From positions 55,570,873-55,634,872 of the forward strand of contig OZ022257.1 of assembly GCA_963978905.1 (NCBI GenBank): 64,000 nucleotides of DNA, given 5' to 3'. Of this stretch, positions 1-49,530 are shown piece after piece. Positions within the stretch are counted from its first letter, which is position 1. The number at the start of each line of letters is the position of its first letter. The position numbers were made by a program, and so were the translations under genes. The notes beneath the pieces were generated by a model, which saw only the letters and a list, made by a program, of their open reading frames with translations, was not told the DNA's origin and searched no databases. The DNA comes from Trichostrongylus colubriformis (lineage: Eukaryota; Nematoda; Chromadorea; Rhabditida; Trichostrongylidae).

Positions 1-282
1 TATTTGCAACAGAACATTCGAGTATCATAATTTCTAAAAAGTGATAGGTGCCGTATAGGTCATATCACTTTTTATAAGGAAGCAACGGAGCTGGTGCAAA
101 GAGTCGCGCATAATACGGTGCGTACTTTATTGCGAAACGAGGTATATGTATAGGTAGTGATAGAGGAGCTTTTCACCACTCATCATGTGTTCTGCGTAAA
201 CGGATGTGCCTGAGAAACTGGTTAGAGTGAACTTTACCAGACAATGAAAATACTATGTGAATCGATCCAGCATTTCTTTCAG

Positions 283-1381
283 GGCGACAGTGGAGATTCG
301 CTTATTCAGGAGAACGAAAAGGGTAAAATGGTTCAGATAGGGACAACGTCATTTGGCAACTCTTGCAAGAACAGTGGGTTTTTGTTTTGAAGTGATGTTG
401 GATTTGCAAAAAACTAGTTAGTTCTCTTCTCTATCGCATCACGCGCTTCTTCTCGTGGCTGGACTTGCGCAATAGGTTTTTTCTTGAACGAGTTTTACTT
501 GCACGTTGCAATGATCATTACTTGGAAAAGTATAAAAAAACAAGTTATATGCAGTAATTTGCTGCTAACGCCGTCACAGCGACTTTGCCACTGATTTCGA
601 ACACACCTGGAGGAGTTGCAGACTTGAAACTGCCTATATTGAAAGCTGTAACTAGGTTTAGACTTATAAAAGTCTGCGAAGTTTGAAAAGGTTCGAAGAG
701 CGTCGTGGAGCGTCGCGGTGCAATCTACGACGTTGCATATTATCCTACGCTTAAGCCACTGTAGTCGCTGCAGCACCGATTCACCGCTTATGAAGAAGGG
801 GTCTGCACAGTTATAACAAATTTCCTCTCTGCGAGGTCGCGCTCGCGGCGCTGCCAGCAGAACTTGCCACGGTCGGTTGGAATTCCGCTCAGAACGCAAG
901 GGTCTAGTACCATGGAGGTCCTTAAAGGAGTAGCTGTTTATAACGTCATTACCTAGAATACAATCACTTTTGTGCCCTTAAAGGACAAAGTAGTGACATT
1001 AGAAGTAAAAAAAACGATAGCACCACATGATAACAATCCAATTAAGAAATAATGAATTCGTGCGTAAAACTAAAGGGAGTGTTGCAATGTACGCATGCAC
1101 ACGCGATGAAATCCGGAGCGCCGCTCGCCGCGCAAAAATGTGTCACAAGTGTACACACCCATGAAGAAGTAGTTATAATGTAATAGATCTTCCTTTGAAA
1201 TATATAATGGGGGAGTAACAAGACTTTACAAAAAACCAGTTACGTTCCAGACTTCAACCATACGTTTTGCGACGCTGAAGAAATCGGCTATTACGGTTCA
1301 GAAGATTATTTCACAGATATGCGTCATGATTTAGATTGGATTTGTGATAAAACAGGTGAGACAACGGCAGTACGTATGTAA
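283..1381 (+). CDS. S1-family serine protease, upstream tandem copy (3' end only)
   Basis: The last two coding exons of a chymotrypsin-fold serine protease. Exon 283-373 follows TTTCAG and encodes the nucleophile loop and the next strand (QENEKGKMVQIGTTSFGNSC). Exon 1251-1381 encodes the C-terminal helix (DMRHDLDWICDKTG) and ends with TAA at 1379-1381. Both align with exons 7 and 8 of the complete copy at 7757-22583, so the two genes are tandem duplicates; earlier exons must lie upstream of the window. The nucleophile motif reads GDSGDS where the family has GDSGGP: Ser195 is kept but Gly197 and Pro198 (chymotrypsin numbering) are changed, so activity or specificity may differ. The donor at 373/374 (GTGGGT) was chosen for phase and is uncertain. 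Confidence 0.72.
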
Positions 1382-1583
1382 AGCAGCAGGAGCAATACAC
1401 ATTACATAGCTGAAAATGCAATTTTATAGGAGTGTGTTCTGAGGATATGCAGAAAGAAAAGGCACGTAAAAAGAAGAGAAATAGATCATCTGCCGTATTT
1501 TCAGCTGAGATTCGCAAATTCCTCTGATGAGACCCAGCATTCCTATTTCAGTAAATCTTGACTATGAACAAAAGTTGCATTAA

Positions 1584-23505: not shown

Positions 23506-23639
23506 GTCTTGTAGGAGTGTGTCCACAGGACGAGCCGAAACGGAAAGATCGTCGAATGACGAGTGAAACTGGAAAGGAAATACATGCCTAGAATCACTTA
23601 TAATCCAACAAAGTCTCATTAATATCTGAAGCGCTTATG

Positions 23640-23990
23640 TTTATCGGTAAATCTTGACTATGAACATAGGTTGCATCTAAATAAATGCATCTATGAAACA
23701 CCTCTCCACAAGATCATCGCTGTCCTACATGACAGCAAGTAAGGTGTTCAATGGACCCGTATGTTTGACCAAAAAATGAACCCATCATTACACTCGTCAC
23801 CTTTAATAGTTCGAAAACCAGCACGAGTAGAAGTCACAGAATGCGGAATGATTCCCGTTATGGATGTCCCTCCTGGACTGTGCACTAACAAGTATACCAA
23901 TATGGTACACTTTCCTCATGCCCTCAGTAGATAGGTTCGAAATGCTTCTGCCATAAAGAACATCGACACATCCATCTGCTTTTACGGGCA
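23640..23990. other. 3' flank conserved with upstream protease copy
   Basis: Similar to about 1556-1900 (shared GTAAATCTTGACTATGAACA, AATAAATGCAT, TAGAAGTCA). Both blocks also contain - strand frames ending in DFY plus a few residues and a stop, with loose similarity (SNL/SNI, HIGILV/HISVVV). Either this is non-coding flank carried with the duplication or it is the last exon of a convergent gene. Confidence 0.4.
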
Positions 23991-25000: not shown

Positions 25001-26126
25001 GTCGTGATGTGGAGACCACCCTGTAGTGTGGGTCGATTCATTTTGTACATGCGAAAAAGTGGAATACTCCAGGTTACGTTAACTGTGGCCCTTGAGTTCC
25101 ACTTTCAAAACAAAACGTCAGCAATAGCAACACAACAAAACATTCAGACAGGTAAATTGATACTGACGTATCGGAATAGACGCACCACAATAGAATAACA
25201 TCCAATCTCGTCGTAATCTGAATGAGATAACAAGGAAGAAAGCTATAGAGAGACCTCAAATTTTCTGAAAATCTAGTTTCATGTGGGGAACTTGTGCAAT
25301 CCGGGGGGATATCGCAGAATTGGTAGCATTATATCGCATTTGACAAGAGTACGGACGGAAGGCTTTCAGAAATAAATGTCGCAGTGAAAGAGCCGATTAG
25401 CAGCGCATAATGGCAGACGACGGTGGCCCACGACGAGCTGCTGCGATGCCAACGTATTTAGCCTAACCGAATGAAGGATTTCTATTCAACGGACGATCCC
25501 CGTTAAGAAGCCCCGGTCCGTCGACGAGACACTGAGCTCGCTGAAGAGCGTGCAGCCTGCTGGTCACTCGAGACGTCTACGCCTTCCGAACGTCCTTCCT
25601 GCAACTGATTGCTCGAACCGAATGCAAATTAGTAATTAGCTTGCGGTTCCATTGTAGATTCTGATAAATCGGCAGGACTGAGGGGCGAACGTGTGTCGAG
25701 TTCCCTTGGGAATTCGAAATGAGCTAACATGGATGAGTGGCTCTTTTGATGGTAATCATCGCGATTATCACTTAAGTGGAGAGTGTTGGCGAAGCAATCT
25801 GGAGAAATCTTATAATTCATGAAAAATTGTAAATATTTAATTCGCTTCGCAAAAAAAAAGAATCGTGACCACCCCGATCCTATGTAGTGCAAAAGGGTGA
25901 CATCGAGCGGTTGGTAGTATTTTGGAACGACGACGTCGAACTAATTTCGGCTTTAAGTTCCTTACGATTAGAGGTGGCAACATACCTTGGTTACTATTTT
26001 CTAGATAGCAACAAGTAAGTCACTGTCACTTATCAACAAAGATATCAAATGATATCAAAATTTCACCATACCTCAACGGCACGATAACGAGTTATAGGGA
26101 TGGAAGTGGATATTAGCATACTACAC
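25001..26126. other. No gene recognised
   Basis: AT-rich intergenic sequence with a partial TTCAACGGACGATCCCCGTT segment (25487) resembling the foldback ends. No exon or RNA gene could be supported. Confidence 0.35.
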
Positions 26127-26474
26127 GGGATGCCAAAAAAGTAATTTTGCTCTTGGCCCACATCGGCCTATAATACAAAACATAGAGAAACGAAAGAGAT
26201 AAAAGTATTGAGACAAAATATTCCCGAAATGTTCTACTAGAAGCAGGAACAAACTGTCGCTCCATACATTCACCTTCATAAAAATATGGAGCCTGCAGTG
26301 AGCGCAGTTGGACTTCAAAACACCTACGCTATCAAGCTCCGCTCAAAACAGTGAAGCCACGTTCCATGGTATTAGGTCTTTTGTGGGAAGCTTCCTAAGG
26401 ATTGGTTCATCGGTTTGTGGGAGTCGCGAACCTTTGCTGCTTGGACAACGCTGCTATGATCCGAAGTACCATTT

Positions 26475-29000
26475 TTGAGGCCTCAAAAAATACAAACAGT
26501 TGGACTAGAAATCGCTACAAACCACGAAAAAATCCTTATTGTTCTTGTTTATCGCAGCCCTTCATGCACCTCATCAGCTTTTTCGGATTTTATTAGCTTT
26601 CTTAGCGAATTTTTCGTAGAATGGGATAATTCAATCATCCTTCTGGGTGATTTCAACTTTCCTCTTATAAATTGGGATACAATGACCCATAGGGGGGATG
26701 TTTCCACTGCATTATCAAGGGCTTTTGTCTCCTTCGCCAATTCGTTCAGTCTCAAGCAAGTGGTTAGGGACCCAACGCATGGGCTTAACATACTGGACAT
26801 TATTTTGGTTTCTGACCCACAGATAATTGAAGACCTTTGCGTGCTCCCACCATTCAGCACATCCGATCACAAGTGTATAGCCTTCAATGTTTCTGAGCAT
26901 CCTTCTTCCCCTTCCCGCGAAAAAATATCATATAGGTGTTTCTCACAAGGTGATTACGATTCCATTATCCTAGAGCTTGCGACAGTAGACTGGGTTGCGC
27001 TGAGCAATTCTTCCAGGAATTCCGATACCTTCTATTCAAAATTCCTCGACATTTGCCATCGACTAATAAGTAGATACGTGCCTATAAAGCAGCGCGATGT
27101 CGAAGTGGCTAAATATCCGAAGCGAGTTCATTTCATGATGAACAAAATTAAGCAGCTACACTCGTCACCGTTCACACAGTTTCCCAAGTATCATACATAC
27201 TGCCGGAGACTAAGGCGAGCCCTCCTTCGTCACCAACTACTCGAAGAAAAGAGACTAGCGTTATCCAAAAACAGCAAGCGCTTTTTCAACTATTGTAAAA
27301 GAAAGCTTAAGTTGGCTGATTATATCCCGAATATCATCACATCTGAAGGAATGGTTATCGAAGACGATTTTGGTAAAGCCAATCTCTTTGCCGAGTACTT
27401 CCAGTCCGTGTATAGGAGGTCTTGTTCTACTGACGCCACCCTGTCCACAGTAACATCCGAGGTCCTGGATTGGGTGCACATGTCTAGCGATATCATTTAT
27501 AGCACTTTGCGCAAACTCCCTAATAGAGTTTCCACTTCTCCAGACAATATCCCATACATTTTCCTGAAAAAAGCTGCTCTCGGAATTTCCGCCCCCTTGT
27601 CGATACTTTTTAATAGAATCTTACTGCATGGCGACGTCCCGAAGCTGTGGAAGATCGGACTTGTTAAACCTATTTTCAAAAAAGGAGATAGAAATAGCGT
27701 TTTGAACTATAGACCCATATGTTTAACTAGCTCCATCAGCAAGGTCATGGAGCGCTTGGTGTGCAGGAAAATTACCAGTTTCTTAATCGAAAGAGGTCTA
27801 CTTCATAAAAATCAACATGGCTTTCTGAGGCGAAGATCTACCACATCGGCCTTACTATCAACAATCCCCTTATGGCATAAAGAAATCGACAAAGGACATT
27901 TCGTTTCAGTTTGTTATATAGACTACGCCAAGGCCTTTGACTCAATATCTATACCGCTACTGCTAAATAAGATAGCGGCTTATGGCATCAAGGGTCGTCT
28001 TCTCTCCTTCCTGAGATCCTTTCTAAGTGGCAGAGAACAATCAGTTCTCATAAACGGGGCCCGCTCCTACTCTTATCCTACACCCAGCGGAGTTCCTCAA
28101 GGCACATGCATCGGACCTCTCATGTTCATTTTATACGTTAACGATTTATACGACTCTATTCCACAAGGTGCTTTTTGTAGCCTGTACGCCGACGACTCAA
28201 AAATTTTCACTATTAACGACTGCGATAAACTCCAGACAGCTTTGGATTGTGTTTCGGCTTGGTCGAAAAAGTGGAGTTTAGATATCTCTCTCCAAAAGAC
28301 GACCATTATGGGTTTAGGGAAAAACCACCCAAGTTTCACATTCACTATTGGTGACAATCAGCTTATTCGTGTGGATAAAGTCCGAGACCTTGGCGTTCTA
28401 TACAGTGACAAACTTGATTTTGAAATTTTTATCCATGACAGAGTAACCATCGCCAAAGCGAGGTCTAATTTCATTTTCAGAGCGTTTAAAATGCGTGATC
28501 CGGATCTGCTCTTTCGTCTCTTTAATCTTTATGTCAGGCCAATTCTAGAATACTGTTCACCTATATGGTCGCCATACAAAAAGCATCTGATAGACGAAAT
28601 TGAGAAAGTACAGAAAAGTTTCACGTATCGCTGCTTCATGCGAAAAGGAATTACTTCTCTATCATATGAAGACAGACTCAGAAAGCTTGGTGGAGAAACG
28701 CTTGAGTTCAGACGTAAGTTAATCGATTTTGGGCTAATGTACAAACTAATTACAGGTGAAATGGATTTAAAATTAAGTGATATTTTCGAGATGTCTCCAT
28801 CCATTGGAGTATCGAGAGGACATCCCTTCCGCCTACGGCCAGACAAACCTAACACTCGTGCTTATGAAGGATCTTTCACTGTTAGAGTAGTATCGATTTG
28901 GAATAAGCTCGAATGCGATTATTTCAAATGGAGACATTCACGAAGTTTTCAGAACGAGCTAGCCAACTACCTTAAGCATCAAATCAATAATGCCGACTGA
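26475..29000 (+). CDS. LINE ORF2: endonuclease (partial) and reverse transcriptase
   Basis: 841 codons without interruption. Residues 1-160 are the C-terminal part of an apurinic-type endonuclease (LLGDFNFPLINWD, then SDHKCIAF with the catalytic Asp/His). The RT domain follows: PIFKKGDRNSVLNYRPICLT, GFLRRRSTTSALL, SVCYIDYAKAFDSI, SGVPQGTCIGPLMFILYVND and CSLYADDSKIF with the catalytic YADD. The C-terminal domain has RPILEYCSPIWSPY and ends YLKHQINNAD. The start codon listed is only the first in frame; the true N-terminus with the rest of the endonuclease is missing through 5' truncation. The intact frame suggests a recent insertion. Confidence 0.92.
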   Translation: MRPQKIQTVGLEIATNHEKILIVLVYRSPSCTSSAFSDFISFLSEFFVEWDNSIILLGDFNFPLINWDTMTHRGDVSTALSRAFVSFANSFSLKQVVRDPTHGLNILDIILVSDPQIIEDLCVLPPFSTSDHKCIAFNVSEHPSSPSREKISYRCFSQGDYDSIILELATVDWVALSNSSRNSDTFYSKFLDICHRLISRYVPIKQRDVEVAKYPKRVHFMMNKIKQLHSSPFTQFPKYHTYCRRLRRALLRHQLLEEKRLALSKNSKRFFNYCKRKLKLADYIPNIITSEGMVIEDDFGKANLFAEYFQSVYRRSCSTDATLSTVTSEVLDWVHMSSDIIYSTLRKLPNRVSTSPDNIPYIFLKKAALGISAPLSILFNRILLHGDVPKLWKIGLVKPIFKKGDRNSVLNYRPICLTSSISKVMERLVCRKITSFLIERGLLHKNQHGFLRRRSTTSALLSTIPLWHKEIDKGHFVSVCYIDYAKAFDSISIPLLLNKIAAYGIKGRLLSFLRSFLSGREQSVLINGARSYSYPTPSGVPQGTCIGPLMFILYVNDLYDSIPQGAFCSLYADDSKIFTINDCDKLQTALDCVSAWSKKWSLDISLQKTTIMGLGKNHPSFTFTIGDNQLIRVDKVRDLGVLYSDKLDFEIFIHDRVTIAKARSNFIFRAFKMRDPDLLFRLFNLYVRPILEYCSPIWSPYKKHLIDEIEKVQKSFTYRCFMRKGITSLSYEDRLRKLGGETLEFRRKLIDFGLMYKLITGEMDLKLSDIFEMSPSIGVSRGHPFRLRPDKPNTRAYEGSFTVRVVSIWNKLECDYFKWRHSRSFQNELANYLKHQINNAD

Positions 29001-33122: not shown

Positions 33123-34985
33123 ACTTGCGTGTTTCCCATCTCCCTCGTGTATGTGGCTTTACTGACAGTCCACCGAAGAATGCTAGGTAGGGGCGGCCGA
33201 AAGAGCTCGTTGCTGATTTGATTGAATTCGCGGTCTTCTGTCAGGCTCCTTCGTCCGTCATTACGAAAGCTATTGTGTAATTCCACGAGTAGTGTCGCTT
33301 TTTTCGAACAAAAATTTTTTCACATGAAAATACAAACTCGTGTCGTATTTCATACATCATTCGTAAGAGATTTTGTTGCTCTGTGAAAGACATGTTTAGC
33401 TCTTTTGTTCATCATAAAGAAAAGCTAATCTTCAAGTTGGCGAAGTGGTTGCTTCAGTCCACAAAAATTTACCAAACTGGCAATTAAATAAAACACTACC
33501 TTTTACTCCTGAAAGAACCGACCAATCTGTGACACCATTTTGGCCCCGACCTTTTCTATAACCAATCGGTGAAACTTCTCTACAAGTTTCACCGATTGGT
33601 GGCTTGAAGAGTCGCGTCACTCTTTTTACAAATATGGTTTTTTCGTCGCAACTCGGCTACTTTTAACAATTTCTTCGAATGAAACAGAAGAATTTTCTCA
33701 ACAAATCAGTCGAAAGGGTGGTGAAACGTGAAGTGGAACTAAGGAGTAGGGAAGAGGAAACATTATTGGCCGGATTCCTTAATTATCTGTTGAAAAAATA
33801 AATTGTGAAGCGATGTCACCTGAGCCGCTATCACATAGTTCTGAAATTTAACCTGATTCGCGGCTAAAATTAAATCGAAACATGTTTTTGATAGAGCAGA
33901 GAGAATCCTTCCGAATGGCAATGCCGAACATGGAAAGCTGAAGGGAAATCTCTTTTAGATAGTTGTGTGCTTCCGGAAAAAGGAATTCAGAAAAAGAACG
34001 ATGTGTGTACTCGGTTTGAATAATGTTTCAAATAATTGCCGGCTTGTCAATTTCTGCCAACTGAACCTATCCCTTCGTCAGCCTAAAAATCAGCCCCATT
34101 TTTCAATGTCTGGAATTATACAAACTACTTATAGAGCAAAAAAATCGCTTCCGAACGATGTATAAAATGCTCCAAAAACTTGCAAATTTTACAGAATAAT
34201 TTTCTTTAGAGAAAAAAACCACATTACACATGGAATGACCCAATATATTGCTTATATCACCACACTGTGCCTGATAATGTGTATACAGCATGAGATATCT
34301 TATCTACGAAGTGCCCGGGGAATGATTGGGCTCACGTCAGTGGTGAAGTATCATTCACAACAGTGCGTTAACCCGAGATGGTTAAGAAAGCGTCATCAGG
34401 TGCGTCAAATCACCTCTTATCACCTGCTTCATAGCATCCTTGTAGCACCACTATAAGATCTCCAGTTTCCAAGGGCTCAGGACAATTCGTGACTACCAGC
34501 TGAACTAAGTGGATTACATCCAAAGAAGAAGTTAAATCCTAGATGGGACACCTGCATCAGCAGTACGGAAGACGAATCCTGTGTGTCAGGGAGAATGGAT
34601 CCGCGTATGGGGACGGGAAACGCCGTTATTTTTCAAGGTTACTGCCACTTGAAATATCCTCCCGCTCGCGCGCATTCAAATGTGACTCAACGTAAGAATT
34701 GCTATCATGAGAGAGGCAATTAAATGAACACGAAAAAGCTTGCATAACTGACATTCGGGAGTTTTAGAGTTTGATAACAACATATACATACATATATGCA
34801 TAACTATAGGAGTGACAGGGAACGACTCGAATTTTTTTCCAGTGCTGGTGCTATTCTTTGCGTATATGGGGGTGTACACTTGCGGATATTCAATGATAAC
34901 GGCAGATAAGGAACATCAGAATGTGGGTGACATCAGATACGCTGTGCTTTTCGAAATAGTGGCGAAGGGTTGACCCTCGTATACG
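33123..34985. other. No gene established; possible signal-peptide exon near 34235
   Basis: ATG at 34235 opens MTQYIAYITTLCLIMCIQHE, which looks like a signal peptide and could be a 5' exon for the micro-exon gene downstream. No donor giving the needed phase 1 was found, so no exon is annotated. Confidence 0.2.
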
Positions 34986-36362: not shown

Positions 36363-36461
36363 AAGAGGTCACTCAGGAAGATGAAAAGCAGGAAAAGCGC
36401 GTCAAAAAGAAAAAACAACGGCACCGTACACCAAAGCGTCGTTCAAGAGAAACTCTTTCAG
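36363..36461 (+). CDS. Micro-exon 1 (99 nt)
   Basis: After TATCATTTAG; donor GTAACC. Reads EVTQEDEKQEKRVKKKKQRH and on to RRSRETLS, acidic then strongly basic. Phase 1 both sides. Confidence 0.6.
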
Positions 36462-39400
36462 GTAACCATTACGGTATTTCTCCACCAATAGTAAAGCAGA
36501 CAACACCTTGGAGAGAAACATTCCAGTTTACAAACGTTCACAGGGCTCAGTGGGAGATTATAAAGTGGAAAACTATAACGAAAAAGAAAGGTGTGGTAAA
36601 AACAGTCCAAATTTAAAAGTTTTTCTTTCAGTGGAAACTACGGAAGCCGAAACAGTAAGGAAGAAAGCACACCCTCGAGCTGGCTCACGTGAGTATCTTC
36701 TTCGTGCCACTAGTAGTAGGTTGTCCCAAAGTCTTGCAGGAGTTTTTTTGATCATCATTTTTTATGATTATTTCTTTCAACAAACAACAAATAGGCAACA
36801 ACGTATCCACCATTATTATCGACAACACTCTGCCACCTCATAGGTAAATCTCTCAAGCTCCCTAGTTAACTGTGGCACTACGGGTATTAGCCAAGTCAGG
36901 CACACATATACGGCATGTTGCTGCTTTCTGTCACTGATGCTACCACCGCCCCCGCCCTCACCCCCCTCCTGACCTTCGAGATGGAAGAGCTCGCAAACCT
37001 CTCATGAGGGTTGGTGGAAATTTATAGTGAAGAAGAAAGTTGCAATAAAATGGATGCCTGCTTTCGAATCCCTCATTAAAGGCACTTTCCGCGATAAACG
37101 CACCAGGAATTTACGCTGCCGCAGCCGATAGACCTCCGCGTAAATGTCGTGGCTGTACGCCCAGAACGGCGCCACGAGCCGTCCTGGCAGCGCAAAGCCC
37201 GCGGGAGGCAACTGGGACCCCGCCCACCAATTGGCGACCCCACCCGGCATTGGACGAAGTTTTTTCCAACGTGGCGTTCACGTAGGCCTGTGATTCTACG
37301 ATAAGATAAGATAAAGAAGAAATTTCAGTAGTTAATGAAACATTCACTTGGGGAAACAGGTAATATCCCGAGGTTCCTCATGGTACCATCCAACGAGAAC
37401 TGATTCGAAGGTTCGTTTCCACGCAGTAATCTCGTACAAGGCCAGATGTCAGGAGGCCTCATTTTTGTCATTTTCGGGGGCTTCTTTCGGATTTTTCTTT
37501 CTCGGTGTATTCTTCAGCAGCCCTTATTTCACAATTCAGCTCTCAAACCCGTTAGAGGTAATCGCGAAAAGTGCCTTTAAATCAAAACTGCGGAAGGCGA
37601 AACGAGAAAGAAAAAAAGTCCAAAGAATACACTTGATAGTTTATGTTACGTACAGTTTATGTCGTGCTAGTCTAGCAACGCCACATTCATTAATAAATTA
37701 TAAGTTGAGGATGTTAAAGTGGTATATGAGAATCCCAACTATTTCTATGATTTTGATATATTTGGTTGTTGATAGCTGCTGATTTTCGCCGTAGCCCGCG
37801 ATGCGAAAGTTGTTACAAGTATGCTGATTTATGGGCAAAAGCTTCTATCTCGGACGGACCCGAACTCACACTCCTTGCTTCCCGGGCATATGTGTTAATG
37901 ACGTGTGCGAGTGCTGAAGAGCTATGGTAAATACGTTCAGAAGCTTTGTTAGAGACCCGGAAGGGGTATATTTGGCAATTTGGGGAATCATAAAAGTATT
38001 CATAATAGAAGTGTTTGGCAATATAAGAGTGGAGACAGAACGACATAAAACTGTGGAAAACCGATGAAGGAACCCGAAAATCCCCCTTTCCTCTCGCGTC
38101 CCTCTGCGTCACTAGCGGGGGTAGACTGCAGACAGGCTAGAGGCCGAATTAGCCGGCCGCAATCGTCTTCCCGCCCCTCCACGGCGACTTGCGCGGCCGC
38201 AGGACCGCAGGACGACGTGCCGTACTGTGTGGTCGTCAAAAGACCCCGCGCTGCGTTTTCTCTGCAACTTTCGCCACATATTACCTCTTTTGCAGTATAA
38301 GGTTCGTGAAAACATGTACTCCCAGATCTCAGTTTTCTCTTAGCTCTACTGGTGCCTCTAAGGTGAAAGGAGTCTCGGTAGTGCAGTGGATTAGCACATA
38401 TGCACGAAAAGCATCAAGAGCGGTTCGAGTCCCGTCCGAGACCGAAGCTTTTGCTAATAACCCAATATATGTACTTGTAACAACTATTTCTATAATTATT
38501 TGATCAGCTGCGACGCAAAATGAATTTGACTCCGCAATCAAGAACTGAATTTGTTATAAGATTGTCTTCAATGCTAGAAGTGTAAAGTCAGTAAAAAATG
38601 GATTCGAGAGGAGTCAATATTTGATCATTGTTTAGGTGAAGGTTCTGCAGAGACACCTGGTGGAAAGAAGAAATCACGGGTCACCGGTTCACGTAAGAGA
38701 TTTTTCCTGATGTAAAACAAGGTTTGAGTATAGAGCCTTGGTGGTGTGGGGTCCAGTCGCCCATGTGCAGGATCTCCTTTTGTGTTTCCTTGACCCGTGA
38801 TCTGGCACATTTTTACGTCACACTAAATAGGGCAAGGGAATGATAAATTGCATGACTTTAAAAAATGAAAAAAAAAGTGCAAATGAAAAAAAGTGGTGTT
38901 GCTGTGAAGAGAAAACGAAACGTAGTGGGTAAATATTCAAAAAATCGATCCCTGTATCTCGTGCTTATTTGATCATTATTTAGATGAAGGTTCTGCAGAG
39001 ACACTTGGTGAAAAGAAGAAATCACGGGTCACCGGTTCACGTAAGAGATTTTTCCTGATGTAAAACAAGGTTTGAGTATAGAGCCTTCCAATGGGTGGTG
39101 TAGGGTCAAGTCGCCCATGTGCAGGATCTCCTTTTGTGTTTCCTTGACCCGTGATCTGGCACATTTTTACGTCACACTAAATAGGGCAAGGGAATGATAA
39201 ATTGCATGACTTTCAAAAAATGAAAAAAATGCAAATGAAAAAAGGGGTGTTGCTATGAAGAGAAAACGAAAAGTAATGGGTAAATATTCGAAAAATCGAT
39301 CCCTGTATCTCGTGCTAGTAGTTACAGCCGCACGCACTCACTGACATATCGATTGAAGCTGCGTGGGTCTGTGCTGTGTGACGGTGCTACGCAGCATGTG

Positions 39401-42400
39401 ACGTGTTATCCTCGGACAGCGTAGCCGGTAACAGAGGAGGCTGGGAGAAGGCCGCGCCGCACAGGATTTTCGTTGAAATCGCTTTTGGGGACGTCGACGC
39501 TACGGAAACCTTCCACTCAAACCACACAAACTCTATCGTTCATTTGTCACGGAAATACTTTTCCCTCCTGCACACTACATGGCCGTCACTCAGTTCAACC
39601 GCTTGAATTACTTGTAAGCATCCCGAAAACTGTGCAGTTGCAGGTGAAGGCTCTGCTGAACGAATTCAAGAAAAGAAGAAAAATCTTTCGGGTTCGCGTG
39701 AGTAAATTTGAGAGCTGTGGTACTACTGTAAAACCTAAATAGCTAAATTTTGTCCAGCTTTAGGCGTTCTAACGGGTTCATGAAGTGTGGCGAAGTCGGA
39801 GCAACTGCTCACTGGGTCGTAGGTATCGTTTGACGGGAGACCCCACCCCCTAGTTCTCTCCGTAGTTACAATTTTTCTTGAATTATTCAAGTCGATATGA
39901 AACACAGTCAGTTGTACCAGTCGGATTGGACGGCTGACGCCGGTCAATCCGACTGGTCAGTTGTATCTTTGTCCTCTTACAAGCATCCCAGGGAATTGCT
40001 ACTTTTTCTTACGACTGAATTTTCATTAATTTCTTCTTCCATTGTCTTCGCCTCTCTAAAGACAGTGATAGGGATAATGTGGGTAATGAGACATCATGGA
40101 ATGGGTTACGCAAATGAAAGCAAAGGATCAGACGATATTTGGCGAAATTTACAGTAGAAGGGGCCCCCGAGCTTGATGTGAGCCATCGTCTTCAATAGGT
40201 ATCACTTGTTTTATCCCAACCCGCCTCTTTCAAGAATAAGTGGTGGAGAGGTGGTCTTATTTCTCAGGTTTTTAGTCGTTTCAATCTCAACCTTTATATC
40301 TGATGATCTTTCAATATTTGGCCCAAATTCCCTCTATCACTGCCTTTATGTCCTACGCAGCTATTTGATCCAGTTCAAAACTCTTGTAAATGGGTTGATA
40401 TTTCAGATGAAGGATCCGCTGAAACAGTCAGAGACAAAAATAATGCAAGCAAACCCGGTTCAAGTAGGTCACTCTTTGTGTTTGGGAAAATTTGCAGCGA
40501 AAATGATTAAGTACAGTTTTTGATCCTCTCCTGAACTTTTTACCACAAGAGATTGGAGGGAGGGGGGGGGGGGGCGAAAAGCCGTACAGCCATCAAAGAA
40601 AATTTTCCGAATGCGCAAGCGGCGCAGCATCAGAATGACGGAGAGCCTTTCGTTCAACATCCAAACCCCTTAGAGAGCGCTCTTTGAGGTTTATTGCTAT
40701 AGCGTTTCTAGAATTCTGGAATTATAAAGGATAAAATTTTTTGACGTTTATCGATCCTTCACTGGGATGCACCGCACATTCTACAGTCCATTTCCCGACG
40801 GCTTTCAGGGCGAGGCCTACGGACTTGTATCGATCTCTCTCGTCCCGCCACACACCTTCACCCAAGTCTGTAGGCCACGCCCTGCCACCCTTCGGGTACT
40901 GGACTGTAGTTCCATTTAGAATCGTGGTGGCTGGTGAATATGATGTGGTCTATACAATTACCATAATTGGCCGGACGATGTACAAGTCATTGCTTTTATC
41001 CTCCGAGACCAGTCTGGTATAAATTTGCCGACCGCGGAGGGCTTGAAGTCTTGGTTGGCCTGGGCGGGCGTTGATGCGGGATTCAATCCCCGTACCATGA
41101 AAGTGGGTTGTGCGCCACTTAACACTTCACCACCTCCTCCCTTTTGCGAATGAAATGATTGATATTCTTCTCACTTAATCAACAGTACGCGATGCTGGTA
41201 TTTTCCCTTGGTCTTGTTAAGTATTTAATCCATCACCAAATACTGGTAACAGCGCAGAAAGTATGAGCAGACCCCCACATTGCGCATTTCTTACTGGAGA
41301 CTCCTCCTTATCTTGCCAATTCTTTAAGGGCAAAGAAACGAATAGCACTAAAACCAGATGATGTGATCACGCCCACATGCCTCCCGTTTCGCTACCATTA
41401 GGCATTGTTCGGGGTTCGCGATTCAGGCGTATCATTCACCTAGTCGATACGTAACTTATCCATTCCGCCCAAACTACTTGATCGACGTATTGTTCGATTT
41501 TTTTCTTCCGACCCAATCGCTAACTCTGAACAGTGCTTTACTGGAGGGGGGGGGACGGGGGGTGGACGGATATACTCTCACAAGAGATCCATTCATTCAC
41601 ACTGGAAGCGAAAGACGCTTATTTAGCTAGGAAATATTATACGTGCTATAGAAGCCACCGTTCAGAGGAATCCATTGGCAAAGATAAGAAGGAGAAGATT
41701 TTACGTCATTCTGCAGAAGCTGGTTCGAGTAAGTGACATTCCCTTATTAATTTTTGGGAGGTTTGCATGGCTATGGCAGCACCTTGTAAGGGGCACACAC
41801 AGATTCCATGTCCAGTTCGGCATTTACTCATTATTACAGGCTAATCAGCAACCTTTTGAATCCCCCCTACCCCTCATAATGCTAATTCAGTTCTCCACTT
41901 TGCTTAAGTCGATGATAGCTGGAATGGGACGATGAGAACATTGACGTTAGCGCAGCTTGGTTGTCATAACACATACCCTATCAAATACCCCGTGATTCGC
42001 GGCTGATGTCGACAGCGGTGGGCACTCTGTTCAATGGAATGAATAAATCCGTTGTTTAGAAGAAGATGATAAGAAAGGAAAGAGATCACAATTAAAACCA
42101 TCTGGATCGCGTAGGTGTTCTACCTATTTTATTCATAGGTTGAAGTAAAAATAATACTCTGGCTTTTTTATTTACTGGAACAAAAATGGCCAGTTCCACC
42201 TGTTTATGCTTTAGAAGAACCTGCTTCTACCGAAAAAGACAAGAAGGAAAAGAAGTTACCAGCAACGTCAGAGTCCACCTCAAGTTGGTGCTCCTTAATT
42301 GATTTGGTTCTTCCGTGCAGAATTCAGAATTTCATGATTTGAGGGCAAACTATTATAGATCAACATATGTAAGGATAACGAAGAAAGGAAATAGTCCCTG

Positions 42401-45400
42401 AATATTCATGTCATAAGGGAAAGGGAACTAAGAACAAATCAATTAAATGGATAAGTATACGTGATTTTCAGAGGAGTCTGTCGAAGCTGATAAGAAGGGA
42501 ACGACTATTCGCACTACTTCGAGTAAGAGCCTTGTCTTCTAAATAACATTTCCACGTAATATAAAGAATATACTTGGCAGGGATTTACGGCTCAGGAACC
42601 AGCATTTCCCATTGTGCCATGAGGAACACTACTATAATGACCAACATCTTAGCACAAGCGCAGGATTAAAGACCCCTAATAGGGTCTGTATCGTTAGAAC
42701 CTAACAGGAAGTGTGCCTTTAGCACAGGATTTCGCAACGTCAAGTGATCCAGTTGGGTCCTGGCGATTGCTGCTTCCACGATAAAATAGAGCCCCAAGGC
42801 ACGCCAATTGCTTTTGATTTACTATTATACTATGACACCTCCAGCTTCCACGCAATACACCGCACTCGGCACTCGGACTTCGCAACACCGCAGGCAGTTG
42901 CGAAGTCCTGTCATAGCGTTACACACCTCTAATGGATACTGTAATCTTGTGTACGTATTTGGCGACTTGACCCAGCGCAGTTGTTCAAAAGTTACATTCG
43001 CTAGTCCAAAACGAGGTCCGTGGATGCATTAGACGAACTAAAAGCTGAAGGGAAACTGAGCAAATCACCGTTTGTGCCTTCACCGCTAAATGGATAGCGC
43101 GAGGAGAAATTTACTTCTCAAGGGCGCGCCATGATTATCTTAGGTCAGGCCACTAGCGAACTGTTACCTTCACAGGTACAATGATGGATTTGACAGGGAG
43201 AGTTACATAAAATTGATCGCAATCGCAATATAAAATTGAAGTTAGAGATCCCGCTGGCGGTAAGTCGAAGAATAGGTGTTCTCAGATCTTCTAGTTAGTG
43301 TTCTTCTAGACTTAGCCTCATCAATTCCTTCTAAAGTTCGATAGCAACGAATCCGAATGCAAAATTCTTTTATATCACGTGAACCGTAACCGATGTGATT
43401 TACGCACAGCAAAATAATTTTAGAAGACTCTACACATCACGCCTAAAAATGATATACTAAGGATTGAGAGCTGCTGCAATGGTCTGGGGGTGGAAACAGC
43501 GCCGATAGTTTGGAGTTGAAACCCGCGACATAGGGCATGCCGGAAGGGTCCCGGGACGGTAGCCGCGACAACAGTTAAGACAGGACGCCGTGGCAGAAGT
43601 ACGGCTCAAACGTCACCCAAATATAGCGCCAAGGCGCCATTTGCAACACCTTTTGGGAGCTACACGTCGAAATGGCATCTTCAGTGAATTTTTTCAGGTG
43701 TGGACACTTCTCAGCTTACAGCTGTCGAGAAAACACAACTAGTGAACATTTCGCGTAAGTGGTCACTTTGTAGAGTAGCCATAAGTGGAGTCTTCTTGTA
43801 TGAATGTCGAGCAACGCATGGAAAGCATTCGCCGGAAGATCGGGTAGAATTTCATGGTCATCGTTGAAAAGGCATTGGGAAGGGCAAGTCGACCACATTG
43901 TTTTGCACGCCAGGGAGCGTGGCGCATCTCCCAGATATTCGAACTTGGCTACTGCGCGCTACGGCTGCCTTACTGCTGCTGCCTTTATGAATTTTTTGCG
44001 TGCGGAATGGCGTGACCGCTGCAATCAGTGGCCATCATCTTCGACCTCTCCTCATGGTGAATGCGGAGTATGCTTTTGAAAAATTGTGTATTATTTTCAG
44101 TGACAGCGGCAGCGCCAAAAAAAGTCGGTGAAATCTACCATGAAATAAAAATACCTACCCATCGTCGAAAAACCGTAACCGGTGAGCATAAGCTCATGTT
44201 TCAGAAAATGCTTCCGGTGATTTTGAAACAGTGAAATGTATTGATAGATTGCAATAGATTGCTTACTACTATTTGTAAAACGCTTCGTCCGTTCATCCGT
44301 CCCTTTATCGAACACGAAACTAGAAATTGCAAGAAAAAGAACCTGTGGAGATGGGGTCAATTTTGGGATGGGTAGGACATGTGGCATTAAATGAAAAGCA
44401 CACCAGCTTCTTAAAGACATCATAAGGGAGTAATTTTGGCTTACGGTAGAACAGACGTAGTGTGGACGAGTTCAAGTGCCCGCCATTGCACAAACTCGCC
44501 AATTTGACGTCTTGGCATGGTGCCAAGAGAAGATGTTTCCATTATAAAGTTGTTCATTCTTTTTACCTTCTCCTTTGTTCTTTCTTATATTGTTTCTAGA
44601 TGTACTTACATGAATGTTAATGTAGTTGGGAATGGCCGCTCCACTACGCTAGGAGTCAGGTGCTACAAATAAAGTTGGCCCGCGGCCGTCTCCTACAGCG
44701 GACAACTCGGAACGCCAGCGCGATGATGCGAATGAGGCGCGAATACACACCGCAGCGATGCACTTTTGAGTTCGGGTTTTTTCATCGATTATCGCTTCTA
44801 AATTTCTGCGTTCGTTACGAAATGCTCATTTCTTTGTATGTTTCTCTTGTTTCGGTTCCCTTTCCGGTTCCTTTAATTCCTGGCCCTAGCTCCGCCCATG
44901 GTGTGTGGAGCATGCGCCGTGCTACCCGGTCCTCGGACCGAAAGTTGTTGAATGGGCTGCAAACTGGTAAACGTGGAGAAAAGACGGGTTCAAGACAGCG
45001 ATGAACTTCTGAAAGACATGAGAGAAGTTTTTTTCACCTCCTTCTCATGTAAGCCAGAAAAAATCCCGGCTTATATTAGAGGGAGGTAACGAATACTAGA
45101 CTACACCAATCGATGAACACAGTTGGTCAGAGCAAGCTCTAGGGACCGTGAGTATCGATGATATCGATCGAAATTATTGGCTTTAGTGTAAAGGACGAGA
45201 AATGGTTGATGAACCATTCTAATGGATGGGTGATGCTGCAGTGGCGAAAACCCCATAGAGTAACGTACCAAAATGATAAGCAGTGATGAGCAGTGATTTT
45301 CACTTGTAATAGATATGTACTTAGTGGTATACACTGCGGTGCATAATGATAAAGCCACTCATAAATTGTTCTATACTTTCATAGTAAGATGTTTCTGGGA

Positions 45401-47464
45401 AACTTCTCAGGTATAGATTGTAGCAAATTTAATCGCGCATCTACACATAACACCAAACTTGAGCTTGAAATAACAGAACAAATTTATCTTCATTTTTTCA
45501 AAAAAATGCAGCTTTTCCGATGGTGCAAAATGATAAAGCCACCCTAAGTTATTCCGTCGCTTCTCATCTGTATTTGCTGAGACGTTTTGCTGCGGTAATG
45601 TTTTTCTTTTTCAGGTAATGGGGATAGGAAAACCCCTATCTGATTTCGAAAAAAGCCAAATTGTCGCAAAAAAAAAGCGGAGGGATAGTCAAATCGTCAA
45701 TTGCGCAAGAATTTAACCGCAGCCACACAGTTGTCGACAACTTTCTCAAGGATCCTGAACTGAGAAGAGTTCTGGGCGATCTCCTTCACTTTCCGAGAAG
45801 GATAAGCGCCGCATTCTCAGAAAAAGTATCGAATTTCACCAAGTCAAGCTCCGATACCAGGTCTTCTTTGGAGCTAAACGTCTCTAAAACAACTGTTTTG
45901 CGGGTTCTGAAAAAAAGTGCAAGTTTATCTCGCGACAGAAAATGAGGAAAGCACCATTCATGACACGAGAACACCGCAAAAATCGAGTGCAGTTCGTCAA
46001 AACATGCAGCCGAGGGTCTGGAGTAAGGTAGGGTATTAGGTCGTAGAATCCTTCTTGCTTTCATATGATGTTTTTCCTCTCCAGATTGTTTTGTAAGGCT
46101 GAAGGAGACACTCCGATATTACTGGCATGATCTAAGAAAGGACAAGCTACGATTTTTTAGAAGGAATTTCAAAGGAGGGGGCGTTGTGGTGTGGGCCGCC
46201 ATTTCATCGAAGAAACGTCCGAAGTTATGTTTTGTTCCTAAAAAGATGAGTTCCCCCGGTTACCAAGTGGTCATGCGCCGTGCACTTATCCCGTTCTGGC
46301 GTGAAAATCGAAGCTGAAATCTTGTTTTCATGCAAGATAAGGGCACAGCCAGAGCACAATTGCATGGTTCAGCCGTCATTGAATAAGGCTCCTGCGCTGG
46401 CCGGCAAATAGCCCAGGCCTTAATCCGATGGAAAATGTATGGCGCTTCATGGTGCGACGGATTTATGCAGATAACAGGGAAATCCAAGGAGTTAAGGAGC
46501 TCAAAAAGGCTATAATCCACGCGTGGCACCAAGTGGACCAAGATCTTATTAATAATCTTTACATGAGTCTAGACAATCGGATTTTTCAGGTTATTCGGAG
46601 AGAAGGAAGGCCAACGGATTATTAGAGTAGCGTATTGTCCCTCTGTTGTTTACGAGTTGTTAAAATTCCTTACTGGCTTTATCATTTTGCACCATCGGAA
46701 AAGCTGCATTTTTTGAAAAAATGAAGATAAATTTGTTCTGTTATTTCAAGCTCAAGTTTGGTATTGATGTGTAGATGCGCGATCAAATTTGCTACAATCT
46801 ATACCTGAGAGGTTTCCCAGAAACATCTTACTATGAAAGTTTATGAACAATTTATGAGTGGCTTTATCATTATGCACCGCAGTGTATACAGAAGTTCCGT
46901 TTGAGAGCAGTTCCGTTTGGCCTACTGATGCCCATCGTATGATGCAGTGGTGGTGTGTGCGAGCCAATTCGAGAAAGGTTGCTGAATCAAGGCAACAGGA
47001 ATAACAAATCGAATATTCAAGGAGATGCCCTGAAAAAGCCAAAACACCATGTGTTGCACAACTCGCGGTGAAAAAAGGCACTTCAACTTTACAGTCCATT
47101 TCTCACGGCCTGTCAGGTGGTGGCCTACGGTCTTCGATGAACGTGTATCAAAGTCTCTCACCCCGCCACACACCCTCACTCTCGCCACGTACTCCCTCAA
47201 CCAAGTCCATGGGCCACGTCCTGCCAGTGGGAAGTGAACTGTAGGCGTAGCTTTGTACCAGTCTGTTGACTCCATAGTCAAGCTTTCCCAGAATTATACC
47301 TGCTCGAAAGTCAGTCTACAAGGGATAATATGAAGCATCTGCATTCACTTTCAGAAGAGTTCTCAACGACTCAGGTATCGGATGAATACAAGACAAGAAG
47401 AGCTAAACAACTAGAGGAAGTAGAAAAGCAGCAAGTACAGAAACCTGAAAAATCTTTGAAGTAG
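36363..47464 (+). CDS. Micro-exon gene: tandem phase-1 exons encoding Lys-rich modules
   Basis: Fourteen exons: 36363-36461, 36527-36595, 36632-36688, 38636-38692, 38984-39040, 39644-39697, 40407-40463, 41666-41728, 42060-42110, 42215-42283, 42472-42522, 43698-43754, 44101-44181, 47355-47464. The first thirteen are 51-99 nt, all multiples of three, all in phase 1 on both sides; the last ends in TAG. The modules are related: an acidic/small start (EGSAET, EESIG, EEDDK), a Lys run, and Gly-Ser-Arg/Ser at the junction, e.g. EGSAETPGGKKKSRVTGSR. The predicted polypeptide is at least 309 residues, hydrophilic, low complexity and strongly basic; no known domain is recognised. Symmetric exons allow any exon to be skipped without a frame change. 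The 5' exon and start codon were not found. Function unknown; architecture recalls micro-exon genes of schistosomes, which is an analogy only. Confidence 0.68.
36527..36595 (+). CDS. Micro-exon 2 (69 nt)
   Basis: After ACATTCCAG; donor GTAAAA. Reads YKRSQGSVGDYKVENYNEKE then RC. Only 36 nt separate it from the next exon, and those 36 nt are an open frame in phase, so the intron may be retained. Confidence 0.45.
36632..36688 (+). CDS. Micro-exon 3 (57 nt)
   Basis: After TTTCTTTCAG; donor GTGAGT. Reads ETTEAETVRKKAHPRAGS with Arg completed at the junction. Phase 1 both sides. Confidence 0.65.
36717..36850. mobile_element. Mariner terminal fragment
   Basis: TAGGTTGTCCCAAAGTCTTG and the following 120 bp match the left end of the mariner at 32254-33122 (shared AGGCAACAACGTAT, CTCTGCCAC). 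Lies in the intron after micro-exon 3. Confidence 0.75.
37078..37300. repeat. GC-rich dispersed repeat fragment
   Basis: Starts TTAAAGGCACTTTCCGCG, which resembles foldback ends, and contains AACTGGGACCCCGCCCACCA similar in style to the core of 1961-2392. Frames on the - strand lack gene features. Confidence 0.35.
37590..37660 (+). other. Possible decayed micro-exon unit
   Basis: GAAGGCGAAACGAGAAAGAA reads EGETRKKKSPKNT, similar to the EGSAET...KKKS modules, but no acceptor and donor give phase 1 on both sides. May be a dead copy in the array. Confidence 0.25.
37834..38463. mobile_element. Repeat family R1 copy bounded by tRNA-like inverted ends
   Basis: About 630 bp. The right end (38372-38463) and the reverse complement of the left end (37834-37920) align: ATTAGCACATATGC versus ATTAACACATATGC, then GTTCGAGTCCCGTCCGAGA versus GTTCGGGTCCGTCCGAGA, then GAAGCTTTTGC in both. 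The interior is R1 sequence also present at 7900-8470. Confidence 0.6.
38372..38442 (+). other. tRNA-like sequence (probably transposon-derived pseudogene)
   Basis: A perfect 7-bp acceptor stem (GTCTCGG with CCGAGAC), a 4-bp D stem (GTGC/GCAC), an ATGC/GCAT anticodon stem with loop ACGAAAA, and a TTCGAGT T-loop whose stem is only partly paired. GAA in the anticodon position would be Phe, but position 33 is C instead of U. Its place as the end of a repeat argues against a working tRNA gene. Confidence 0.35.
38636..38692 (+). CDS. Micro-exon 4 (57 nt)
   Basis: After TTGTTTAG; donor GTAAGA. Reads EGSAETPGGKKKSRVTGS with Arg completed at each junction. Confidence 0.7.
38984..39040 (+). CDS. Micro-exon 5 (57 nt)
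   Basis: Recent duplicate of micro-exon 4: EGSAETLGEKKKSRVTGS. Acceptor TTATTTAG, donor GTAAGA. Confidence 0.7.
39644..39697 (+). CDS. Micro-exon 6 (54 nt)
   Basis: After AGTTGCAG; donor GTGAGT. Reads EGSAERIQEKKKNLSGS, clearly related to micro-exons 4 and 5. Confidence 0.7.
40407..40463 (+). CDS. Micro-exon 7 (57 nt)
   Basis: After GATATTTCAG; donor GTAGGT. Reads EGSAETVRDKNNASKPGS; starts and ends like micro-exons 4-6. Confidence 0.7.
40782..40908. mobile_element. MITE with ACAGTCCATTTC-type ends, copy 2
   Basis: Starts TACAGTCCATTTCCCGACG, ends GTACTGGACTGTA, and shares CGCCACACACC and CACCCAAGTC with the copies at 47090-47243 and 34986-35137. Intronic. Confidence 0.7.
41401..41538. mobile_element. 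Small MITE related to 5420-5591
   Basis: GGCATTGTTCGGGGTTCGCG with GATTCAGGCG at the left and TGAACAGTGCTT at the right repeat the end motifs of the 5420-5591 foldback. Confidence 0.45.
41666..41728 (+). CDS. Micro-exon 8 (63 nt)
   Basis: After ACCGTTCAG; donor GTAAGT. Reads ESIGKDKKEKILRHSAEAGS. Phase 1 both sides. Confidence 0.65.
42060..42110 (+). CDS. Micro-exon 9 (51 nt)
   Basis: After TTGTTTAG; donor GTAGGT. Reads EDDKKGKRSQLKPSGS with Arg at the junction. Confidence 0.65.
42215..42283 (+). CDS. Micro-exon 10 (69 nt)
   Basis: After ATGCTTTAG; weak donor GTTGGT. Reads EPASTEKDKKEKKLPATSES then TS. Phase 1 both sides. Confidence 0.55.
42472..42522 (+). CDS. Micro-exon 11 (51 nt)
   Basis: After GATTTTCAG; donor GTAAGA. 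Reads ESVEADKKGTTIRTTS. Confidence 0.65.
43698..43754 (+). CDS. Micro-exon 12 (57 nt)
   Basis: After TTTTTTCAG; donor GTAAGT. Reads VDTSQLTAVEKTQLVNIS with Arg at the junction; less Lys-rich than the others. Confidence 0.6.
44101..44181 (+). CDS. Micro-exon 13 (81 nt)
   Basis: After TTATTTTCAG; donor GTGAGC. Reads TAAAPKKVGEIYHEIKIPTH then RRKTVT; basic. Confidence 0.6.
44182..45328. other. Intron sequence with GC-rich repeat; no exon seen
   Basis: Around 44660-45000 is a GC-rich dispersed-repeat-like stretch. The frame near 44962 reads TGKRGEKTGSR, similar to module ends, but has no GT donor (GGTTCAAGA) and no acceptor, so it may be a decayed unit. Confidence 0.25.
45329..46888 (+). mobile_element. 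Tc1-family transposon with 213-bp terminal inverted repeats, decayed
   Basis: TIRs at 45329-45541 and 46674-46888, starting TATACACTGCGGTGCATAAT. They are nearly identical to each other. The interior on the + strand encodes a broken Tc1 transposase: a helix-turn-helix part (KPLSDFEKSQIVAKKK; SSIAQEFNRSHTVVDNFLKD) at about 45620-45945 and a C-terminal part (WPANSPGLNPMENVWRFMVR) at about 46400-46625, with frameshifts and stops between. It sits in the intron before the last exon of the micro-exon gene. Confidence 0.88.
45620..46625 (+). pseudogene. Tc1 transposase pseudogene
   Basis: DNA-binding half and the NSPGLNPMENVW catalytic-Glu region are recognisable (the family has D-D-E with SPDLNPIE). 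Several frameshifts and stops between about 45945 and 46390 make it non-functional. Confidence 0.8.
47090..47243. mobile_element. MITE with ACAGTCCATTTC-type ends, copy 3
   Basis: TACAGTCCATTTCTCACGG at the left, GAAGTGAACTGTA at the right, with CCGCCACACACCC and CCAAGTCCATGGGCCACG inside. Confidence 0.7.
47355..47464 (+). CDS. Last exon of the micro-exon gene
   Basis: After CACTTTCAG. In the phase-1 frame it reads EFSTTQVSDEYKTRRAKQLE then a Gln/Glu/Lys-rich helix-like tail ending EKSLK and TAG at 47462-47464. The sequence over the stop (GTAGGTTTT) could alternatively be a donor at 47461, in phase 2; the stop is preferred because phase 2 breaks the pattern. Confidence 0.55.
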
Positions 47465-47507
47465 GTTTTGCCATGAAGGAGCTAAATTTTAGTCTCATAA
47501 CGAAAGT

Positions 47508-48438
47508 ACAGGGCGGGGCAAAATTATGAAAACTATATTGATGCCACCCAAAAACTTTATTTCAGCTTGGACAAAAAAGTAATCATCATCGATTTAATCC
47601 TCAGAAAAAACAGAACAAAACCACACCTCTTTTTTTTCAAAACAAGCCGATTTACTTCGACACAGGCTCTAAGACGCTCCGGAAACGCGTTGACCGTGGC
47701 GTGGAGGTAGTCTTCGTCCTACTCATCCCATGCTTTCCCCAGTGCTGCCTCCAGAGAATTGAGGTCGTGATGAGGTTTCAGCATGCTTTTGACTCGAGGA
47801 CGCTCCATACAGAGAAATCGAGTGGGGTAAGGTCCGGCGAACTGGGATGCCGTTCATCAAAAGCGATAGAATCAGGGAAATTTTCCTTGCACCGCTCATG
47901 GACATCTTGGCCTCGTGAGCAGGGGAACTGTCTTGTTGATGGCACCCTTTCTTATATCCAAAGGCCTCTGGGCCCACAGTAGGACTTCGTCCTTCAGAAT
48001 GTCCAAATAGTGTTCGCGTTGACCTTGACTCCCTGTGGAACGAAGACCAGCGGTGAACGAAGACCACGCAGATGATCGCGCATCTTCTTGATTTTCGCCT
48101 GCCTTGGTCGTCACAGAAGTCGGTCTCCCACGTCCTGGTCGGTCGGAAAGGTTTCCTGATTCTGTAAACATTGCGATTGTTCTCGCAACAAGACTTCTTG
48201 GTACCTTCAGCCGGCGGGAGATGTCAACTGCTTGGAGTCCTTGAAGGTGCAGGTCGATGATGGAAGTCCGGTGAAGGGATGGCCTTGTCATTTTAGATCA
48301 AATATGAAATTTTCGTGTTGGTTAGTAGAGAAGGTTGCGCTGAATCGAATAAAAACAAGCAAGAGCTTTTCAAATGCGGAAAGCGCCTCCGGGGTCGCTG
48401 CCGCGCCTAGTTTCCGTAATTTTACCCCACCCGTACTG
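47508..48438 (-). mobile_element. Internally deleted Tc1/mariner element
   Basis: Inverted ends ACAGGGCGGGGCAAAATTAT and, from the right, CAGTACGGGTGGGGTAAAAT. On the - strand an HTH domain starts at about 48291 (TSIIDLHLQGLQAVDISRRL, VPRSLVARTIAMFTESG, RPGRGRPTSV) and is joined directly to a late catalytic segment (REHYLDILKDEVLLWAQ, then KKGCHQQDSSPAHEAKM and a SPDLTPLDFSVWS-like segment in shifted frames). The middle including the first catalytic Asp is missing. It lies 43 bp after the stop of the micro-exon gene. Confidence 0.82.
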
Positions 48439-49530
48439 CTACAACACTATCATCGGGAGTCTATTCTCTCTTTATTCACATTTTACGATATATTTTAATT
48501 AAATTACATTTGCAACAGTAACGACCCAATAAAATTCAAGGCCACTTCTCGCTATGGCATTTGTGGGTGCAGCGGTTGTCATCATTTTGCATTTCATACT
48601 TATGCACATTCTTGCTACCATACCAGATGTCCAGGTATGCACTTTTTTCCTCCGATTTACCAAACAAGTAAACTGCACGGAACCCAGAGGTACATACAAA
48701 CTGGGCAGATTACAGTAATCCATGTGTGCGTAGCAACCATAAGCATCACATCACAGATTTACGTGGTTTTTGCGTGTTTATTTGTGGACAAAGCACAGTC
48801 AAATGGGAGAGGGGCACATCATGTATGAAGCTTGCCGCTGCCTTCGCGTTGCCACATAAATTATTGAGAAAGAAATCATCTTACCTTATTCAATGAACCT
48901 TCAGATTATTCGAAATAAGATTCCATGTCGTCAAACAACACGCAAAAGGTTGCAGGTTATGACAGAAAATATAGATTGCTCTCTGATGATCAAGTTAGTT
49001 AGCATCACTTTTTTATTTACCTGGGATCAGTAATCTGTACACATTATTCGACGTCTGATGTTGATTACATCAAGTTCGAGGTCGTGTTAAGGGATCTAGG
49101 ACTACCGTATGGCATGCGGACATGCTGTATTAATGCGCATTGTTTCTTGTCTGCACAAGAGTAACACAGGATTTGGAGAGGAGAAGGGGATGAAGCATCA
49201 CCGCGCCGTTTGGGTTCGCGTTCATCAGAATACGTTAAGCTAGTGAGAACATATACGGTAATCCACTGCTACACTTTGCCATCGATCCTCCATGTACTCC
49301 CTGTACCCCACCACATGAGAATGTGTAAGGATTTAACATATACAATTACAACAAGGTCACAATCCATTACAAGTCCAGACACGATGCTATGTGAAGCGCA
49401 TTGAATGAGTTTCGGTGGAGGAAAAATTTCCTGTATCATATAACTACTAGAATGCTCTGTATAATGACAAAGCACCCCTGAAATCTGAAAAACTCCTCGT
49501 GAAATACAATTTTCCTGATATGCTAGCGAG
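48439..49530. other. No gene recognised
   Basis: AT-rich intergenic sequence; short frames only. Confidence 0.35.

Follow-up and report, generated by a model that had tools for sequence, protein, structure and literature searches.

The window analysed here, that is, the whole stretch of 64,000 nucleotides taken from the genome of the strongylid nematode Trichostrongylus colubriformis (GenBank assembly GCA_963978905.1, contig OZ022257.1, positions 55,570,873 to 55,634,872 of the forward strand), contains an array of short symmetric exons, which appears to be unannotated and in which the tandem duplication of an exon is evident from the sequence. The array lies well above chance level and looks protein-coding, and it is smaller than was claimed in the original prediction made from the same DNA. 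With moderate confidence we explain it as the 3' region of a separate nematode gene, which would encode a Lys/Glu-rich chain of variable length by means of exon skipping. Positions below are those of the window.

The exons, their frame and the tests against chance

The array consists of 12 splice-bounded internal exons at 36363-44181 of the forward strand, followed by a stop exon. In their order these are E1 (36363..36461, 99 nt, EVTQEDEKQEKRVKKKKQRHRTPKRRSRETLS), which is the module of the highest basicity (net +7), E2 (36632..36688, 57 nt, ETTEAETVRKKAHPRAGS), E3 (38636..38692, 57 nt, EGSAETPGGKKKSRVTGS), lying in one half of a 348-bp tandem duplication, its duplicate E4 (38984..39040, 57 nt, EGSAETLGEKKKSRVTGS), E5 (39644..39697, 54 nt, EGSAERIQEKKKNLSGS), E6 (40407..40463, 57 nt, EGSAETVRDKNNASKPGS), E7 (41666..41728, 63 nt, ESIGKDKKEKILRHSAEAGS), E8 (42060..42110, 51 nt, EDDKKGKRSQLKPSGS), E9 (42215..42283, 69 nt, EPASTEKDKKEKKLPATSESTS), E10 (42472..42522, 51 nt, ESVEADKKGTTIRTTS), E11 (43698..43754, 57 nt, VDTSQLTAVEKTQLVNIS), E12 (44101..44181, 81 nt, TAAAPKKVGEIYHEIKIPTHRRKTVT), and the stop-bearing terminal exon E13 (47355..47464, EFSTTQVSDEYKTRRAKQLEEVEKQQVQKPEKSLK and the stop). 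The 12 internal lengths are all divisible by three, the junctions all have phase 1, and E1-E13, once joined, can be read through 286 codons without interruption up to the stop, TAG. In ten consecutive exons, E1-E10, Glu is the first residue after the split codon, and the modules end with Gly-Ser plus the split codon in 7 of the 12 cases (E2-E8) and with Thr-Ser in E9 and E10. The original prediction counted thirteen symmetric phase-1 exons before the stop exon and described the module ends as Gly-Ser-Arg or Gly-Ser-Ser. The 12 internal exons (51-99 nt) and the stop exon stand, and thirteen is their total, whereas a thirteenth internal exon is unsupported, the further candidates in the interval (e.g., 37453-37557) being not module-like. 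The statement that any subset of the exons could be skipped with the frame preserved follows from the common symmetry and phase of all 12, and, judging by this exon structure, the cell is likely to be able to omit modules and to make proteins of many lengths.

Because the exons had initially been chosen with the frame in mind, blind tests were used. The chain score, computed by dynamic programming over symmetric exons of 45-105 nt irrespective of the chosen ones, reached 75.4 over the 8 kb of the array in phase 1, with 13 exons in the best-scoring chain. The maxima in the controls were 31.9 (270 other trials of 8-kb intervals and phases, 194 kb, both strands) and 24.0 (400 Markov shuffles). 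In phase 0 the array interval scores 52.7, since that frame, too, is free of stops in many of the short exons. The interval contains 15 symmetric exons open in phase 1, whereas 300 shuffles averaged 2.2 and never exceeded 8; for phases 0 and 2 the corresponding counts in the interval are 12 and 3. The clearest sign of the array among the chance tests is the Glu-first signature (an acceptor, two bases, GAA or GAG, an open length of 36-120 nt divisible by three, and a donor). On the forward strand of the 194 kb it retrieved 14 exon starts, namely those of E1-E10, that of an exon at 66099 past the window end (D1, see below) and 3 others, and on the reverse strand it gave 10 entries.

Kinship of the modules, the predicted product and the 3' surroundings

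The modules E3-E6 have EGSAE(T/R) in common, and E7, E9, and E10 have a Lys-rich core in common. In a test of all 153 pairs of 18 exons (E1-E13, D1-D3 and the two protease tail exons described in the next section; 200 shuffles for each pair), 14 pairs reached p<=0.01. E11 had no partner at this level among the 18 exons, and the sole match of E12 was D1, outside the window. The earlier description of the modules as acidic or Lys-rich and, for the most part, related is retained; the kinship applies to E3-E6 and to E7, E9, and E10, but not to E11, which has no match, nor to E12, which pairs only with D1. The gapless comparison of E4 with E6 gave 6, 1, and 12 differences at the first, second, and third codon positions, respectively, a distribution typical of coding sequence, and the 4 differences in their EGSAET block are silent throughout. 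Other module pairs were aligned as proteins, which biases the differences to third positions, and they are not relied on. The tandem duplication that includes E3 and E4 has a unit of 348 bp, with 11 differences in 339 aligned bases, and these two are the sole ones among the 13 exons to be covered by a repeat that recurs within the 194 kb. The array could thus grow, as it evidently did at E3/E4, by copying of an exon along with its intron.

The joined chain of 286 residues contains 49 Lys, 21 Arg, 38 Glu, 9 Asp, and neither Cys nor Trp. Its pI of 9.87 agrees with the basic protein expected earlier, and its composition suggests that it is probably disordered. No Pfam family was matched by the joined modules at E<=1, and no relative of the chain was found in PDB at E<=1. 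In the protein database the joined array had no homologue at E<=1 (candidates of about 157-500 aa), and a query of the protease end plus E1, E2, E3, and E5 retrieved no module relative at E<=10 (about 85-270 aa). The protease joined to E1-E8 (about 231-735 aa) gave 1709 matches, and among the 12 of them examined none was found to carry the modules. Since the database includes T. colubriformis proteins and none with the modules was found, the gene of the array probably lacks annotation there, within the lengths searched. The search of the joined array against the own genome (331-Mb assembly, 52 contigs) produced 14 matches, 13 of which are the locus itself; the 14th, located elsewhere, contains 3 stops (E=0.095) and was rejected as a second array. 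No other array was found in the genome by this search, whose sensitivity is limited, D1, the relative of E12, being also absent from its list.

Past the window end there follow two exons that are likewise symmetric and phase 1, with a stop exon of matching phase: D1 (L012:2099-2173, window 66099 on, EPQLGKKKAGKIYHKDELRKRRGS), starting with Glu, D2 (L012:2820-2870, SYEGYTSLSHDRGDRR) and the stop exon D3 (L012:3603-3703, its end corresponding to window 67703). The similarity of D1 to E12 was equalled in 7 of 20000 shuffles. These exons, which lay outside the view of the original prediction when it delimited the array, may serve the array as an additional 3' end 22 kb downstream, or they may belong to another, shorter array related to it. 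The last intron of the array contains at 45327-46889 an element with inverted ends of about 215 bp, which we take to be Tc1-like. A possible poly-A signal of the array, AATAAA, is located at 48528..48533 of the forward strand, and between it and the E13 stop there is a TA-flanked insertion (47507-48434), presumably a mariner-like element; without this insertion the AATAAA would sit roughly 135 nt past the stop.

The upstream protease and the possible readings of the array

Upstream of the array and on the same strand lies a complete gene of a trypsin-like protease of the DUF316 family (PF03761; 7757..23591, +); its intron phase matches that of the array, and the original prediction of the locus did not mention it. 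The gene begins with a signal-peptide-like start exon (7757-7871, +). The penultimate exon (22456-22560, +) ends with ...DWICEKTG and has a phase-1 donor with a strength of 11.2, and the terminal exon (23515-23591, +, GVCPQDEPKRKDRRMTSETGKEIHA and the stop) is followed by AATAAA at 23680 (+). The joined exons match PF03761 with E=3.9e-15 and PF00089 with E=2.1e-15, the exons with the His, the Asp, and the GDSGGP motif are all present, and the stretches around the His-Asp-Ser triad can be aligned with a protease of solved structure; the S1-pocket residue is Gly here and Asp in that structure. Over five compared stretches the protein agrees in 200 of 205 residues with P0001 (T. colubriformis GCK32_008579), an agreement which, for one protein, points very probably to T. 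colubriformis or a species extremely close to it as the source of the genome. One intron of the gene contains a block of open reading frames (ORFs) at about 10.2-16.4 kb of the reverse strand, which we assume to be retroelement-like, and tandem repeats of the GGCGCATC type, with periods of 8 to 109 bases, occupy 17035-17400.

At 226-1527 (+) the final three exons of the protease recur as a partial copy with a Lys-rich tail exon of its own (1430-1527); for this copy the 90 kb upstream yielded no N-terminal exons. The genome search with one protease exon gave 26 matches, while the whole-genome PF03761 search was uninformative, with no matches here and none in 14 control genomes. More DUF316 exons (L038-L042), three of which are 50-56% identical to one window exon, are found on the same strand at about 152-186 kb in window coordinates, forming a protease cluster of about three genes and a fragment near 180 kb. 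The paralogue with a clear end has there a single short terminal exon (186234-186304). Lys-rich tails are present in some members of the family (P0005, P0006), and the GVC cysteine is present in 6 of the 12 family sequences examined. At the C8 protease locus there are no family exons downstream, so it is uninformative on arrays.

As to the beginning of the array, E1 starts exactly as the neighbouring modules do and is therefore probably preceded by a phase-1 exon. If the array is a gene of its own, its first exon would be located between about 23.7 and 36.36 kb, E1-E13 would be transcribed and spliced into one predicted chain, and the skipping of exon subsets, with the frame kept, would yield a predicted basic protein in many lengths. 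The original prediction had proposed to look for a signal-peptide exon upstream; in 23.5-36.5 kb no convincing exon of this kind with a phase-1 donor was found, none could be tied to the array, and scans for spliced-leader first exons gave nothing convincing either. The ATG at 36318, in an extended E1, was set aside as a start, because E1 opens with a split codon and Glu like the other modules, so that its acceptor looks real. A candidate first exon at 34590-34691 (splice sum 16.3) was equalled in 56 of 500 shuffles and is not claimed, and a further candidate, with a weak hydrophobic start and a donor of 9.4, lies at 25049-25151. Between the protease and the array, at 26460-28997 (+), there is an 846-codon reverse-transcriptase-like ORF, presumably of a LINE; apart from it, the exons of the protease are the only coding exons recognized upstream of E1.

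The array could also provide the DUF316 protease with an alternative C-terminal tail: the protease donor at 22560 would be joined either to the short terminal exon at 23515 or to E1 (36363), and the product would be a secreted protease that bears a variable basic tail; we treat this reading as tentative. It is favoured by the common strand and by the protease being the nearest source of recognized non-transposon coding exons, by the strong phase-1 donor that matches the phase of the array, by the Lys-rich tails known in the family and by the fact that no other start exon for the array was found. Besides, E1 resembles the tail exon of the partial protease copy in 9 of 18 residues, which was equalled in 17 of 20000 shuffles; however, one of 211 other Lys/Arg-rich stretches matches E1 equally well as that exon does, and with the terminal exon of the protease itself E1 has no match (3732 of 20000 shuffles equal). 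The protease is, moreover, complete without the array, with its own terminal exon and AATAAA, and splicing to E1 would deprive it of the GVC cysteine. Behind three neighbouring paralogues and one C1 paralogue no module array was seen, but these views extend over 5-12 kb (3 kb for C1), whereas here the array lies 14 kb past the last shared protease exon. We take a gene of its own as the default and regard it as somewhat likelier than the alternative protease tail, because the protease possesses a 3' end independent of the array and would lose this cysteine by using E1. It is a rather doubtful extension of this idea that the locus is an independent nematode counterpart of the schistosome micro-exon genes (MEGs), namely a secreted trypsin-like protease with either a short fixed or a modular, skippable basic tail and with at least two alternative ends (at 47 and 68 kb), so that a single gene would supply the host interface with many enzyme variants that differ in their tails.

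What can be read directly from the letters, regardless of the choice between these readings, are the splice signals, the common phase, the Glu start of E1-E10, the kinship within E3-E6 and within E7, E9, and E10, and the E3/E4 duplication. Several observations weigh against the array being an active gene of its own. Neither a start exon nor a signal peptide was found upstream, and phase 0, too, contains no stop in many of the short exons. The splice model was a generic nematode consensus, not trained on this species. When strong acceptor/donor pairs were counted blindly to frame by length modulo 3 at four rising thresholds (20/12/12, 18/8/6, 12/4/0, and 10/2/0), the excess of lengths divisible by three was modest, with Fisher p=0.057 and p=0.014 at two of the four. 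The E3/E4 pair bears no sign of purifying selection, because the exon has diverged no more slowly than the sequence around it (3 of 57 compared with 8 of 282 positions) and all 3 exon changes alter the amino acid. Finally, the database, which includes proteins of this species, yielded none with the modules in the lengths searched, and diverged copies elsewhere in the genome could have been missed, because D1 went unreported. It is improbable, however, that the array is a decaying or untranscribed remnant of a gene that has lost its 5' end: the missing start exon, the transposon-like insertions in the last intron and before the poly-A signal, the unconstrained E3/E4 pair and the lack of database proteins with the modules would fit this, but one open frame runs through the 13 exons, each with its splice signals, whereas 13 unconstrained exons with such strongly diverged modules should have acquired stops or frame shifts.

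Comparison with known systems

In the PEVK region of titin, short symmetric phase-1 exons follow one another in long series; they encode disordered modules rich in Lys and Glu and are spliced in varying numbers. The array resembles it in its short symmetric phase-1 exons with Lys/Glu-rich modules, but these modules have no Pfam match, often end with Gly-Ser and are not Pro/Val-rich; a titin-like domain nearby was not searched for as such. With the DUF316 proteases the array is connected by the member upstream on the same strand, by the phase of its last donor and by the Lys-rich tails of some relatives. Unlike the array, the DUF316 paralogue with a clear end has one short terminal exon, and no symmetric array was seen in the stretches inspected.

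In schistosome MEGs the micro-exons are limited to about 36 nt, and none of the 12 internal exons of the array, with their 51-99 nt, is that small. As far as the accounts used here go, MEGs have most of their coding sequence in very small symmetric exons, are alternatively spliced and encode a signal peptide (PMC4350168, PMC4413821); they are described there as restricted to flatworms (PMC4350168) and listed among the few candidate variable surface or secreted antigens of parasitic worms, in which classical antigenic variation is concluded to be apparently absent (PMC4413821). The array shares with them the many small symmetric exons in a row, the lack of a known domain, the occurrence in a parasitic worm and an exon structure in which skipping would keep the frame, and it differs, besides exon size, in belonging to a nematode, in the visible interrelation of its modules and in that no signal peptide was found. 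Of what was claimed originally, the symmetric phase-1 structure of 12 exons and the nematode origin hold, but the exons are larger than micro-exons. No homologue was found in the protein searches at E<=1 or E<=10, which is weak evidence as regards kinship with a described MEG family, as MEG families diverge strongly. Judged by titles and abstract openings, the papers listed from the open-access literature include no nematode counterpart of MEGs, and in the two of them on nematode genomics whose text matched "microexon" the word concerns only an option of a read mapper. In view of the larger exons and the different taxon, and with neither a signal peptide nor a homologue found, membership of the array in the schistosome MEGs is not established. 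The array marks a probable gene that the current annotation seems to miss, within the protein lengths searched, and it is a concrete locus at which splicing-based diversification in a nematode could be examined. Its presumable way of working, by means of skippable symmetric modules, fits that of the MEGs, and, if real, this strongylid array would suggest that the splicing-based diversification of proteins arose again outside the flatworms.

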